Under the pieces are notes generated by a model, which saw only the letters and a program-made list of their open reading frames with translations, made no database searches and was not told the DNA's origin. The position numbers were made by a program, and so were the translations under genes. A stretch of 34,785 bases of DNA, taken from assembly GCA_001775055.1 (NCBI GenBank), contig MFBU01000025.1:1-34785 (forward strand), written 5' to 3'. Source of the stretch: Candidatus Curtissbacteria bacterium RIFCSPLOWO2_02_41_11. Its GTDB lineage: Bacteria; Patescibacteriota; Microgenomatia; Curtissbacterales; GWA2-41-24. This document shows, piece by piece, positions 11,917 to 27,487 of this stretch (within the stretch, counting starts at the first letter, position 1; each line of letters begins with the position of its first letter).

Positions 11917-11950
11917 AAGGTCAGTATATCAAAAAGAATGAATATTTTAC

Positions 11951-12044
11951 CTAAACAACTTAATAATGTCGTTTAGATAATGGAGCAATTACGAAACAAC
12001 GATTATCGTAATTTGCGAAGTTATCGCAATGATATCTCCTTTAT
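11951..12044. other. Multi-stem structured region with a diverged copy of the rseP 3' end
   Basis: The gap between rseP and proS can fold into several stems: AATTACGA (11987-11994) with TCGTAATT (12006-12013), TTGCGA (12013-12018) with TCGCAA (12024-12029), an outer GATAA-GGAG (11976-11985) with CTCC-TTATC (12036-12045), and CTAAAC (11951-11956) with GTTTAG (11971-11976). On the minus strand 11948-11974 can be read NDIIKLFR-stop, against NDILKLFR-stop at the true rseP end, differing mainly at third codon positions. This suggests a duplicated or displaced gene end. No T run follows, so it is not a plain terminator. Confidence 0.5.
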
Positions 12045-13154
12045 CTATCTAAATAACTTCAAAATATCATTATAAGTAATCAGCACAATCAACGCCAAAA
12101 GCAGCGCAAAACCAATGGTGTGCGCCCATTTTTCAACTGCCGGATAAACCCTTCTTCTGGTTACCGCCTCAACAATAATAAAGAAAAAGCGGCCGCCATC
12201 AAGTGCCGGAATCGGCAAAATGTTAATAATTCCCAAATTTAGGGATAAAAGTCCAATTAACTGCAAGACCGAAATCGGCCCCAGCGCCACTGCCTGGGAA
12301 GTAATCTGAGCAATTCCGATTGGTCCGGAAACACCTTCGGAAACCGGCGCAATATTTCGCGTACGGACAGCATATCCAATAAGTTCCCCAAAAACCTTCC
12401 CGGAATAAACAACCGTATTGTAACTGTGGATAAAACCGGCAAATAACTTCTGAGGCAGGGTCGTATAGTTTAGAACAACCAACTCACCCAAGCCAACGCC
12501 AAGTGCCGGCGCTTTGAGTTCCGTGCTGTAAGTTGGCGTGACTTCAACGGTTCTGGTTTTGTTATTAACCGGATTTTCCAAGACCAAAGTCAAATTCTTA
12601 CCTTCGGAGGATCTGATGATTTTTTGCAGTCCCTCGATGGAAGAAATTTTTTCATCGCCCACTTGAATAATCGAATCGCTGATTTTGATTCCAGCGCTTT
12701 GGGCAACAGACCCAGCATTAACATCGGCAACTATAACTTGCCGCGATTGATTGACAAATTCAAACTTATGCTCAAAAAGAAGCGGCAGGCTAACCTTAAA
12801 ACCTAAAGCAAAAACCACGATGTAAAAAATGACAATTGCCAAAAGCAAATTGGCAGCGACACCGGCCACTACCACCAAAGTTCGCTGCCCCAAAGACTTT
12901 ATGTAGAAACTATCTTTTTGATCACGCCGCTTATCTTGCGGGTCTTCACCAACCAGACGAACAAAACCGCCAAAAGGCAGCCAGTTAACACTATAAATCG
13001 TCCCTTTAACTTTTTTGCCCCAGATTCTCGGAGGTAAACCGATTCCGAATTCCTCAACACCAATACCGGCCTTTTTGGCCATCATAAAATGGCCGAACTC
13101 ATGAATCAGCACCAGAACCGAAAGTATTAAGAGAAAAATGATAATTGTCAACAT
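12045..13154 (-). CDS. rseP: Site-2 intramembrane metalloprotease (RseP family)
   Basis: 369-aa zinc protease of the RIP/S2P type. HEFGH is at residues 18-22 in the first membrane helix. A second cluster NILPIPALDGGRFFF, near residue 310, carries the Asp ligand. One PDZ domain occupies about residues 125-200, starting GSVAQSAGIKISDSI. About four membrane helices. It cleaves regulatory membrane proteins or remnant signal peptides. It lies between frr and proS, an order also found in many bacteria, though uppS and cdsA that often separate them are missing here. Confidence 0.95.
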   Translation of the reverse strand: MLTIIIFLLILSVLVLIHEFGHFMMAKKAGIGVEEFGIGLPPRIWGKKVKGTIYSVNWLPFGGFVRLVGEDPQDKRRDQKDSFYIKSLGQRTLVVVAGVAANLLLAIVIFYIVVFALGFKVSLPLLFEHKFEFVNQSRQVIVADVNAGSVAQSAGIKISDSIIQVGDEKISSIEGLQKIIRSSEGKNLTLVLENPVNNKTRTVEVTPTYSTELKAPALGVGLGELVVLNYTTLPQKLFAGFIHSYNTVVYSGKVFGELIGYAVRTRNIAPVSEGVSGPIGIAQITSQAVALGPISVLQLIGLLSLNLGIINILPIPALDGGRFFFIIVEAVTRRRVYPAVEKWAHTIGFALLLALIVLITYNDILKLFR

Positions 13155-24630: not shown

Positions 24631-25722
24631 TTACTCTCCCCACATTCCCGAACCGTAGTTTTTGACTAAACCCCGAAGTTCCAAAAGTGATAACGTGGAT
24701 GAAACTTTATCAATTTTTAAACCACTCTCTCTGGCAATCACGTCTATATGTTTTGACTGCCCATCCAGTAAATCCAATATTGTTCTTTCCATCTTGTCTA
24801 ATTTTCCAGTCTCAAGTTTCTTGTTTCCGGTATCCAGTTGCCTTTGTTTCCTCTCAATATCCAAAACCTGCAGAATATCAGCCGCTTCCGTTGCCGGATG
24901 CACGCCTTCTTTGATTAGATTATTAGTCCCCACACTCATTTTGCTATTTACTGGTCCGGGCACGGCAAAGACTTCCCTGCCTTGTTCGGCCGCGCATCCG
25001 GCGGTAATCAAAGACCCGGAATCAACCGCTGCCTCTGTTACTAAAACTCCCAATGATAGTCCTGAGATAATTCGGTTTCTGGCGGGGAAGTTCGAAGGAA
25101 CTGAAGGAAAACCCAAGGGAAATTCAGAAACTATTGCCCCGTTTTGGATTATTTTTTCTGCTAAAGTTTTGTTCTCCGGCGGATAAATCAAATCAACACC
25201 ACTTCCCAAAACCGCAATTGTTCGGCCACCGCTATCGATCGCTGTCTTGTGAGCAATACTGTCGATTCCCCGCGCTAGCCCCGAAACTATCGCAAGACCA
25301 GCCTGCACCAACTCCAACACCAACATCTCTGTCACCTGTCTGCCATAAACGGTTGCATACCTTGCACCAACAACCGCAATCGCCAAATCATCCGAAGGTA
25401 TCAAACTACCTTTATAATAAAGCACCGGCGGGGAATCGGAAATCTGGCGTAAATTTGCCGGATAATCCCGATCCAAAAGCGAAACAACTTTAATTCCCCG
25501 CTCATAAACCGTCTGAAGATAAATTTTCGGGTCAACTTTTTGCCGAAATGCAAGTATCGACTCGCGTGTTTTGGAATCAACTTTTAGTTTATTGATTTTC
25601 TCGTAAGGCGCTTCCCAAAATTTTTGCAAACGCTTGAAGTATCGAAGTAAATAATTAAAAGTAGCACTACCGACACCCGGTATTGCAGAAGTCGCCACCC
25701 AATAGGCAAGTTCCTTATTCAC
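24631..25722 (-). CDS. dprA: DNA processing protein DprA
   Basis: 363 aa. Loads RecA on incoming single-stranded DNA during transformation. An N-terminal helical part (about 1-70) is followed by the Rossmann-like DprA core with VVGARYATVYGRQ, SGLARGIDSIAH, GRTIAVLGSGVDLIYPPEN and SEFPLG..P..FPARNRIISGLS. A C-terminal winged helix follows (MERTILDLLDG to the end). A degenerate heptamer tract encodes the linker RKQRQLDTGNKKLETGKLDK. The start is GTG 25722, overlapping the RAYT stop. A decayed second copy of this start lies 725 bp upstream at 26447, past the transposase gene. Confidence 0.96.
   Translation of the reverse strand: MNKELAYWVATSAIPGVGSATFNYLLRYFKRLQKFWEAPYEKINKLKVDSKTRESILAFRQKVDPKIYLQTVYERGIKVVSLLDRDYPANLRQISDSPPVLYYKGSLIPSDDLAIAVVGARYATVYGRQVTEMLVLELVQAGLAIVSGLARGIDSIAHKTAIDSGGRTIAVLGSGVDLIYPPENKTLAEKIIQNGAIVSEFPLGFPSVPSNFPARNRIISGLSLGVLVTEAAVDSGSLITAGCAAEQGREVFAVPGPVNSKMSVGTNNLIKEGVHPATEAADILQVLDIERKQRQLDTGNKKLETGKLDKMERTILDLLDGQSKHIDVIARESGLKIDKVSSTLSLLELRGLVKNYGSGMWGE
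24806..24847. repeat. Degenerate heptamer tract inside dprA
   Basis: Six diverged 7-bp words (CCAGTCT, CAAGTTT, CTTGTTT, CCGGTAT, CCAGTTG, CCTTTGT) in the linker before the winged helix. Confidence 0.5.
25694..25722. repeat. Functional copy of the duplicated dprA 5' end
   Basis: The first codons of dprA (minus strand GTGAATAAGGAACTTGCC and on) match 26420-26447 except for two one-base indels. The two copies bracket the RAYT gene. Confidence 0.8.
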
Positions 25723-26348
25723 GCTCGCTTTTCACCCCAATTCAAGACCCGGACTTGAGAAGGAGTATCTTCGAATAGATACTTCGCAATTAAATCCCTA
25801 AGCCTTTTTTTCTCCTCTCCCTTCAAAAATTCTCTGTATTTATTATTCCAGTTCTCACCAAAATAACTACTTACGAAATCAGTATCCACGATGTCATCGT
25901 CTGTCATTCCCAAGTAAATTCTAAGTGAGGACCACCAATAGTCTTCAAGTCTATTTCCCCCAAGAACTTCTAAAGGATTTAAATGGATATATCTTGTCAG
26001 ATGTAGCAAATATTCATCGTTATCTACATTTATCGCCTTAAATCTTCCCTGAAACAAAGGGCCTACTCGCTCATACCTTTTATTAAAATACATCGCATAA
26101 GCAAGGTTCAATCTGTTGATAAACTTGGAAATAGGCTCGTCAGTATTCTGCTTAATAAGCAAGTGAAAATGGTTAGGCATTAGACAATAAGAAATAACGG
26201 AAACGTTGTGCAAGGTTTTGTATTCTTTTAACTTGCTTGTAAATCGTTTCTTATCTGCTTTGTCGAGGAAAATTGTCCTTTTTTCGGATCCGCGGGAATA
26301 GACATGATAATAGCCCCCAGCAAAAAATATTGGTCCTCTATAAGGCAT
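25719..26348 (-). CDS. REP-associated tyrosine transposase (RAYT, Y1 HUH family)
   Basis: 209 aa, related to IS200/IS605 TnpA. HUH motif in MPNHFHLLI (H60, H62); catalytic Tyr120 in TRYIHLNPL; GYYHVYSRG near the start and LFQGRFKA in the core. It is complete and apparently undamaged. RAYTs nick single-stranded DNA at REP-type palindromes and are usually single-copy domesticated genes. It is flanked by the 14-mer CAAGACCCGGACTT at 25743 and 26381. Its 3' part carries a hairpin (AGTATCT 25764-25770 with AGATACT 25777-25783). Its stop is formed by the dprA start. A promoter whose -35 box lies in the flanking repeat reads into it. It probably inserted at the dprA start. Confidence 0.92.
   Translation of the reverse strand: MPYRGPIFFAGGYYHVYSRGSEKRTIFLDKADKKRFTSKLKEYKTLHNVSVISYCLMPNHFHLLIKQNTDEPISKFINRLNLAYAMYFNKRYERVGPLFQGRFKAINVDNDEYLLHLTRYIHLNPLEVLGGNRLEDYWWSSLRIYLGMTDDDIVDTDFVSSYFGENWNNKYREFLKGEEKKRLRDLIAKYLFEDTPSQVRVLNWGEKRA
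25743..25756. repeat. 14-bp repeat at the 3' end of the RAYT gene
   Basis: CAAGACCCGGACTT, a near-palindrome, identical to 26381-26394 on the other side of the transposase gene. Here it is inside the RAYT coding region. Confidence 0.75.
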
Positions 26349-26354
26349 AAGGAC

Positions 26355-26383
26355 AAAATAGAGGATAAACCAACCGAAGTCAA
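26355..26383 (-). promoter_or_regulatory. Promoter of the RAYT gene
   Basis: Minus strand TTGACT (26378-26383) and TATTTT (26355-26360), spacer 17. The ATG at 26348 is 6 bp past the -10 box. The -35 box overlaps the flanking 14-bp repeat. Confidence 0.6.
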
Positions 26384-26408
26384 GACCCGGACTTAAGCTC
26401 GCTTAAGT
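26381..26408. repeat. 14-bp repeat plus hairpin at the 5' side of the RAYT gene
   Basis: CAAGACCCGGACTT (26381-26394), then a hairpin ACTTAAG-CTCG-CTTAAGT (26391-26408) that overlaps its end. Candidate left-end recognition structure for the transposase. Confidence 0.65.
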
Positions 26409-26447
26409 CGCACTAGCTGCCACCCAAATAGGCAAGTTCTTATTCAC
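26402..26447 (-). pseudogene. Decayed original start of dprA
   Basis: On the minus strand GTG at 26447 begins VNKNLPIWVAASAT-stop, aligned with dprA VNKELAYWVATSA. One base is lost and one gained, so the frame is disturbed for only four codons, and TAA follows after 14 codons. It begins three bases after the stop of the 26451-26798 gene, where dprA would have started before the transposase arrived. Confidence 0.7.
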
Positions 26448-26450
26448 TAG

Positions 26451-26798
26451 TCAGAAGTTACTTACTGCTGGTTCTCTTCTCCGATCCTCTCTTATAGCTT
26501 CAGCTCTTCTTGTTATCGCCTGTACAACTTTCTCCTGGCCCAATAAAGTTAACACACTGTTGAGCACAGTTACCTTCCCACAGTTAAACAAATGTTGACC
26601 TTTAACATCTTGAGACCGCATCTCCTTAGGAATTCTTTCTATTTGCAATAGAGTATTAGTAGTAACATCAAGATCCCTAATTAATTCAGTTACATCAAGT
26701 TCTGTTAAGGCTCTTACATCTGCCAACTCCGCACCTGTTCTCTCTCGAACCATTCCTTCCAAACCGGAAGCAAAGTCCTCTCGATCTTTCCCAACCAT
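26451..26798 (-). CDS. Hypothetical helical protein upstream of the original dprA start
   Basis: 115 residues, charged and helical (MVGKDREDFASGLEGMVRE and on), with one Cys and no recognised family. It has a clear promoter and a strong AAGGAGGG 5 nt before the ATG, unlike most housekeeping genes here. Its stop is three bases from the remnant of the old dprA start, so the two were probably an operon before RAYT insertion. Confidence 0.55.
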   Translation of the reverse strand: MVGKDREDFASGLEGMVRERTGAELADVRALTELDVTELIRDLDVTTNTLLQIERIPKEMRSQDVKGQHLFNCGKVTVLNSVLTLLGQEKVVQAITRRAEAIREDRRREPAVSNF

Positions 26799-26819: not shown

Positions 26820-26849
26820 AGTTTATTCTCAATAGGAATAACTTGTCAA
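26820..26849 (-). promoter_or_regulatory. Promoter of the 26451-26798 orphan
   Basis: TTGACA (26844-26849), spacer 18, TAAACT (26820-26825) on the minus strand; same boxes and spacing as at 10049-10078. Its leader of about 15 nt contains the Shine-Dalgarno. Confidence 0.6.
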
Positions 26850-27487
26850 ATTTTAGTTATCAGCCGAAGTTCTAGGTTACACCGTTTGCTTATAAATCTA
26901 GCCGATTTTTTTGCCTGACTTTTGCGGAATTGTAAGGATATTGATCCGTTATTTTTCTTAAGCTCTGATACTACGTCAGCAATACTCTTTTCATCAAACG
27001 CCAAAGCTACATTTTTGTAATTTTTAACTGCCGCTCGAATTAACGCTTGGCCGCCGATATCCATGCTCTCGGGGAAGTTTTTAGGGTCCGGTTTGTACAA
27101 ATCAACCACCACCAGATCAAAAGGTTCAAAATCAGCAGTACTTATCGTTCGAGCCTGTCGAGAACTTGACTTTAAAGAAACTTCTCGACTCCGCTTCGCT
27201 TCGCTCGAAGAATATAAATCGTTCCTCAACGCATCAAGATGTTTCTTATTTGTTCTATCTGCAAGTATCCTCGCAAAAATTGCGCGATCCAAACTTTTAA
27301 CCCTGCCGTCAAAATCAAATCCTGTGACTACTGACTTTGCACTGTAACCTTTTGACTTTAAATATTTGACTGTTCCTTCGGTCCCCCAGAATTTGACTTG
27401 ATTTTTATCAAGAACTTTAAGTAAAGGATCCAAAATTTTTTTGGTAAACACCGCCGCAAAAATGTTTTTTACTGGAATATTATTCAT
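26846..27487 (-). CDS. purH: IMP cyclohydrolase half of a split PurH
   Basis: 213 aa corresponding to the N-terminal MGS-like domain of bifunctional PurH, which closes FAICAR to IMP. Matching blocks: FWGTEGTVKYLKSKGY, GFDFDGRVKSLDRAIFARILADR, FDLVVVDLYKPDPKNF, SMDIGGQALIRAAVKNYKNVALAFD and SLQFRKSQAKKSARF. The AICAR transformylase part is not fused but is encoded just upstream, so gene order is reversed relative to domain order. The segment EAKRSREVSLKSSSRQARTISTADFEP, split as EAKRSREVSLKSS plus SRQARTISTADFEP, is encoded by two palindromic repeats inserted in frame. Confidence 0.88.
   Translation of the reverse strand: MNNIPVKNIFAAVFTKKILDPLLKVLDKNQVKFWGTEGTVKYLKSKGYSAKSVVTGFDFDGRVKSLDRAIFARILADRTNKKHLDALRNDLYSSSEAKRSREVSLKSSSRQARTISTADFEPFDLVVVDLYKPDPKNFPESMDIGGQALIRAAVKNYKNVALAFDEKSIADVVSELKKNNGSISLQFRKSQAKKSARFISKRCNLELRLITKI
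27147..27165. repeat. Palindromic repeat inside the cyclohydrolase gene
   Basis: GTTC-GAGCCTGTCGA-GAAC; same core type as 20316-20341 with different but matching arms. Confidence 0.65.
27171..27219. repeat. Dispersed hairpin element with conserved ends, copy 3
   Basis: TTTAAAGAAACTTCTCGACT at the left and GCTCGAAGAATATAAAT at the right, around a short CCGCTTCGCTTC centre. In frame within the cyclohydrolase gene, 5 bp from the previous palindrome. Confidence 0.65.

Follow-up and report, generated by a model that had tools for sequence, protein, structure and literature searches.

A dprA start duplicated around a RAYT-like transposase gene, with similar scars at other gene ends

The window, i.e., the whole stretch of 34,785 nucleotides that was analysed from a Candidatus Curtissbacteria genome of ~1.08 Mb, carries the first 28-29 bases of dprA on either side of an intact Y1/RAYT-like gene, with two 1-base indels between the copies. 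Duplicated gene ends of this geometry recur around Y1 genes of other genomes and around inserts that hold no transposase, and in most of these cases the copies differ mainly at synonymous positions. We propose, and give an even chance to, an explanation in which the RAYT brought along a foreign gene end; this took the place of the native end, of which a remnant was left, in the manner of a single crossover.

The dprA locus of the window

The genes are arranged on the minus strand in the order purH-like gene, MGS-domain gene, 115-codon ORF, dprA-start remnant, Y1 transposase gene, and dprA. The features are the following.

24631..25722, minus strand: dprA, intact, with restored 5′ end and GTG start (Pfam DNA_processg_A, E 2e-76, and DprA_WH; TIGR00732 above cut-off)
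25694..25722, minus strand: the intact one of the two dprA 5′ ends (alignment; homology to about codon 13)
25719..26348, minus strand: RAYT-like Y1 (HUH) transposase gene, 209 codons (Pfam Y1_Tnp, 63.6 bits)
25741..25757, minus strand: right-end REP-like palindrome TCAAGTCCGGGTCTTGA, with an 8-bp-stem hairpin ahead of it (sequence)
26380..26394, minus strand: left-end REP-like palindrome AAGTCCGGGTCTTGA (repeat search of the genome)
26390..26409, minus strand: perfect 9-bp hairpin at the remnant/element junction (sequence)
26403..26447, minus strand: displaced dprA 5′-end remnant, VNKNLPIWVAASAT-stop (alignment, relatives)
26451..26798, minus strand: 115-codon ORF with no family assigned, absent here in the relatives read (ORF list, profile search)
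26846..27487, minus strand: MGS-domain gene, direct dprA neighbour in insert-free relatives (Pfam MGS, 22.2 bits, below cut-off)

The preliminary description of this DNA had reported the duplication, the intact gene between the copies and the position of both junctions, and all of these were confirmed. The remnant GTGAATAAGAACTTGCCTATTTGGGTGGC begins at 26447, three bases past the stop of the ORF 26451-26798, and its translation (26447-26403) is VNKNLPIWVAASAT-stop; the intact start, GTGAATAAGGAACTTGCCTATTGGGTGGC, begins at 25722 on the same minus strand. Over the 28 aligned bases there are no substitutions and two 1-base indels. Their local alignment scores 46, as compared with 24 for the next-best match in the window; in 20 shuffled versions of it the score never exceeded 25. 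From there on, past base 29, the two sequences differ at most positions; since the peptide A-x-S-A is still encoded in both despite these differences (the serine being AGT in one copy and TCT in the other), the homology of the two starts extends to about codon 13.

The Y1 ORF (26348-25719) is open, its stop overlaps the GTG of dprA, and it is the only gene inside the insert. It matches Pfam Y1_Tnp with an E value of 2.4e-17 and 63.6 bits (cut-off 23) and contains an HFH motif (HUH), both histidines of which are invariant in alignment A1. Against NCBIfam REP_Tyr_transpos (NF047646) it scores 59.7 bits, under the 80-bit cut-off, and a PDB sequence search for relatives returned no true one. The gene is bordered by REP-like palindromes, with one copy of AAGTCCGGGTCTTGA per end (26380-26394 and 25742-25756). 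A genome-wide search gave these two exact matches only, i.e., no dispersed REP copies, while matches with two mismatches amount to three others as compared with one for the reversed control. The 9-bp hairpin GACTTAAGC-GA-GCTTAAGTC (26409-26390) is located at the meeting point of remnant and element; the folding energies of the hairpins at the right element end are not clearly better than those of shuffles. Duplicated flanks, suggested earlier as a feature to look for at other RAYT copies of the genome, were not found at its other Y1 copy (C9), which repeats just its own palindromic ends. A literature search of partial coverage, with subscription journals missing, yielded no paper linking RAYT with Patescibacteria.

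Relatives and other duplicated gene ends

The comparison of dprA starts covered those family members in which this start could be read. In G007 and G012, which belong to the same family and have no transposase, the stop of the MGS gene overlaps the dprA start codon, and a second copy of the dprA start is absent from the locus. In G002 and G014 other genes lie between the MGS gene and dprA, and no dprA-start remnant is present at the locus. The clean MGS-gene/dprA junction with a single start supports the claim of an insertion at the dprA start, and transposase-free relatives with both starts were not seen among these genomes. The remnant had also been taken as the place where dprA once began; this stands relative to the insert, but the ORF 26451-26798 is itself missing from this place in the dprA loci of the relatives read, so that the spot has taken more than one insert.

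In G006, G008, and G004 a Y1 gene of another subfamily is found directly upstream of dprA. The Y1 protein of G008 shares 75% identity with the one of G006 and likewise with the one of G004, and by alignment it is 39% identical to the window's. A diverged dprA-start remnant is present at the left end of the Y1 gene in G008 (MNKKLAYWVVTLA) and in G004 (MNKVAY*VATSVM, with a stop in place of W8); G006 has the RAYT at dprA but no detectable remnant. The remnants of the window genome (G000), G008, and G004 all end at about codon 13. DprA identity among these lineages is 68-79%, the best insert-free relative of the window being at 79%. As neutral sequence would lose such resemblance since the split of the lineages, we infer that the three remnants go back to independent events, all rather recent, at a single spot; that the remnant has a conserved function would be a less likely alternative. 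In G008 dprA and G004 pyrH the remnant looks closer to the family norm than the intact end, which is no more than suggestive of the remnant being the native end.

Other irregularities were recorded at dprA or beside it. At L036 (G004) the MGS-domain gene that precedes dprA has its tail in two copies, 386 nt apart, and at L040 (G009) dprA looks broken, in fragments with stops. At L041 (G003) the dprA tail-like sequences KNYGSGIWGI and QNYGLGIWMI flank a tyrosine recombinase gene beside dprA; this pair was not separable from chance and may be a chance match.

A set of 177 distinct Y1 loci was collected, and 166 RAYT-like genes were tested. In a translated test of the gene ends facing the gene (score of at least 45), 13 of the 166 RAYT-like genes gave a match versus 8 of 779 other genes, both being raw counts that include some palindrome, repeat, and paralogue matches. 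Inspection left about a dozen real RAYT loci: dprA (three genomes), pyrH, purA, pfkB, a LamG gene, a TrpR-like gene, methyltransferase-like and XylR-like genes (in a Chloroflexota and a Planctomycetota genome, respectively), a membrane-protein gene (L071), and L114. The presence of the scar at other genes rejects a dprA-specific phenomenon; duplicated flanks as a trait of all RAYT copies are equally rejected, most loci repeating their own palindromic ends alone. In most cases the remnant is 0-15 nt from the element-end hairpin (further away at pfkB and the XylR-like gene), and the intact gene end lies at a variable distance from the element. The stop codons of the copies are retained yet changed (TGA/TAG, TAA/TGA/TAG). 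Perfect duplicated blocks reach 32 bases in L152 and 19 in L162. In G220 the RAYT takes the place of the native pfkB tail, without a remnant.

Two loci have a more complex layout. L220 has two successive LamG-gene tail remnants downstream of the RAYT with a small palindrome between them, i.e., repeated insertion at one gene end. In L152 (G161) the scars are nested: the RAYT splits the TrpR-like tail, and the tail remnant of an M50 protease is found between this RAYT and the TrpR-like gene.

The window also contains a scar without a transposase, in which the rseP 3′ end is present twice (11947-12071).

12045..12071, minus strand: rseP 3′ end, intact copy, NDILKLFR-stop (tail comparison)
11974..12044, minus strand: 71-nt hairpin insert between the rseP tails, no gene (z -3.6 versus shuffles, for the stretch 11950-12056)
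11947..11973, minus strand: rseP tail remnant NDIIKLFR-stop (5 synonymous and 1 non-synonymous changed codons)

Gene tails and heads were then searched genome-wide in G014 (393 genes, 400 kb), G030 (a single contig, 400 genes), G007 (315 genes), and the window genome (362 genes). At a score of at least 44, the raw counts in this order were 0, 1, 4, and 8 for tails and 2, 4, 6, and 7 for heads against a null expectation of 0 to 1.7, pilin paralogues and one assembly gap being included in them. No clear excess of duplicated gene ends was seen among the 393 genes of G014. G030 has one clear scar, the miaA 5′ end duplicated around a 252-codon gene without known identity (L438, G030:C1 ~245150-246280); G007 and the window genome have several each. 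What the survey found inserted is a hairpin of 29-130 nt, a repeat of the CCCTGAGCGAAGTCGAAGG kind, a single gene, or a hicBA-like pair.

Among the individual loci, L387 (G007) has a hicBA-like gene pair flanked by an intact gene tail and a diverged second copy of this tail. At L391 (from 13231) and L327 (G007), the tails of the H+-pyrophosphatase and of ribosomal protein L7/L12 are duplicated around inserts of 79-83 nt, whose cores are similar to the rseP insert of the window, with an attC-like fold. L197 (G011) has three successive XerC-like tails, VHKAFHSGNK-stop, with synonymous differences only and TCGAAGGG-type repeats between them. Pairing of the start of the duplicated tail with the post-stop sequence is strong in L7/L12, where all null values were lower, and in L221 (p ~0.01); it is weak or absent in the other pairs, so that it counts as a lead only.

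Origin of the copies and of the inserts

The eleven survey pairs are 67-80% identical in DNA, and 85 of their 98 changed codons are synonymous against 13 non-synonymous, a share inflated by the fact that pairs were picked by protein similarity; simulated neutral decay gave a mean of 16% synonymous and a maximum of 27%. In the nine earlier pairs, with the frame-shifted window pair left out, 50 of 91 differences are at third positions (p 2e-5). L270, with 10 synonymous and no non-synonymous changes in 23 codons, and the L7/L12 tail pair, with 12 synonymous to 2 non-synonymous, are too extreme to come from selection by protein similarity alone. Because synonymous changes dominate, the copies would represent two separately maintained genes, one end being imported, and most pairs are probably xenologous rather than decayed target-site duplications. 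For the window dprA pair, xenology is suggested by the last four or so codons and by analogy: its 28 bases are substitution-free and frame-shifted by the two indels, and the window taken alone would be compatible with a possible 29-bp duplication. The original interpretation as a RAYT event at dprA is retained for the insertion, but the scar also occurs at other genes and without a transposase, and its copies seem mostly xenologous.

According to the explanation proposed here, the RAYT element would have entered the dprA 5′ end together with the dprA 5′ end of another lineage. The imported end would now begin the working gene, while the native one, severed, would survive as the remnant beyond the element. 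The insert end touching the remnant would be the true element end (the hairpin end), and the other side would have been joined to dprA at a homologous position via the common gene-end sequence. The net result would be that of a single crossover of the chromosome with a small circle, probably single-stranded, in which the insert is joined to the gene end, parallel to what happens at phage attachment sites that lie within gene ends; this outcome is suggested by the remnant abutting the element-end hairpin and the intact end lying at a variable distance. This explanation is supported by the single dprA start of the insert-free relatives, by the G008 and G004 remnants adjoining another Y1 gene, by the comparable scars flanking Y1 genes at pyrH, purA, pfkB, and others, and by copies that diverge synonymously with stops that stay though changed. 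It is weakened by the first 28 bases of the window, identical but for two indels, by the ~70-75% identity over 30-60 nt, which is a poor RecA substrate, by the only 79% DprA identity of the closest insert-free relative, and by a choice of pairs that favours synonymous differences. Geometry, recurrence, and synonymous divergence are observed; we infer the import from another species, the circular or single-stranded intermediate, and a transposase role in the joining. Since scars exist without any transposase, the Y1 enzyme, which is not always in the insert, may be a passenger.

Alternatively, the RAYT could have been inserted with a long target-site duplication of ~29 bp, through staggered nicks or gap repair, the remnant decaying afterwards. 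The substitution-free 28 bases of the window and the perfect blocks of L152 and L162 would agree with this. Copies made in this way should be identical or differ at random, whereas the other pairs deviate (85 synonymous versus 13), with codon-level divergence and correct stops in most cases; moreover, the duplicated lengths differ between cases and the window copies run past the block with a synonymous serine change. Target duplication is not known for Y1 elements of the IS200/IS605 kind. A long duplication is a minor candidate, and the earlier remark that a plain Y1 insertion is inadequate, with flank capture as a candidate, still applies. Natural transformation resembling homology-facilitated illegitimate recombination (HFIR) would anchor foreign DNA by homology at one end and join it illegitimately at the other, hairpins and RAYTs being passengers near gene ends. 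The diverse cargo (RAYT, REP-like repeat, hicBA-like pair, TrpR-like gene, genes of no known identity), the xenologous gene ends, and the presence of dprA in these bacteria are in line with it, and the pfkB tail replacement of G220 would fit. However, HFIR typically removes ~1 kb of recipient DNA (PMC3240628), while the scars studied show short duplications at the illegitimate end and their remnant is mostly at an element hairpin; classical HFIR is disfavoured by duplication in place of deletion, and we consider this route unlikely.

Assembly or binning chimeras between related species might be suspected, as metagenome assemblies supply most cases and one G007 pair with identical copies, discarded as an artefact, is split by a run of N. 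Against this, the clear miaA case is in the single-contig G030, many inserts are of 29-130 nt and free of N, and G006 is mostly the most similar relative on both flanks of the window insert, with no GC3 jump; chimeras are very improbable. Finally, short hairpin-ended units of Patescibacteria (RAYT, REP-like, attC-like) might home to the end of one particular gene in other species and bring a functional replacement end, targeted by a folded-DNA or guide-like arm with complementarity to that gene end and not by RecA homology, an idea that we regard as quite doubtful. Under the proposed import of a gene end, the scars would show how compact genomes can take up inserts where essential genes end and still keep these genes, and that foreign DNA from other genera is incorporated at sub-gene scale. 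Scars can be counted, so that sequence alone would make it testable how often and with which partners uncultivated Patescibacteria take up DNA, and what part RAYTs play in this.

Comparison with known systems

The window element shares with RAYT and IS200/IS605 elements (PMC2817692, PMC6006769) the Y1 HUH gene, the Pfam Y1_Tnp match, the short flanking palindromes, and the direct-repeated ends. It differs from RAYT in scoring under the NCBIfam cut-off and in an end motif that is not dispersed in the genome, and from both in the host gene end duplicated around it.

The window rseP, G007 H+-pyrophosphatase, and L7/L12 inserts fold like integron attC sites and have in common a left core resembling TTGCGRTAACTTC and a TTMTCTA right end, at a spacing of 34-36 nt, as well as arms of the AAC/GTT type. 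Unlike attC, they do not match the GTTRRRY consensus, and no integron integrase (TIGR02249) was above cut-off in 16 genomes, for which reason an integron origin of the small inserts was rejected.

Integrative elements whose attB is a gene end, such as tRNA or prfC-type islands, carry a replacement for that end. The scars resemble them in having an intact gene end and a displaced repeat opposite, with the gene remaining functional. In contrast to these islands, the window insert has no site-specific integrase (only the Y1 gene), the rseP insert has no gene at all, the inserts measure 0.03-1 kb, and the repeats have diverged mainly at synonymous positions.

With HFIR and single crossover (PMC3240628) the scars have in common that foreign DNA is joined by homology on one side; HFIR gives deletions of ~1 kb, whereas duplications of ~30-70 bp at gene ends are seen here. 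Single crossover of circles likewise yields a partial gene duplication, and in E. coli duplications of 109-950 bp have been traced to the single crossover of small circles (PMC3240628).
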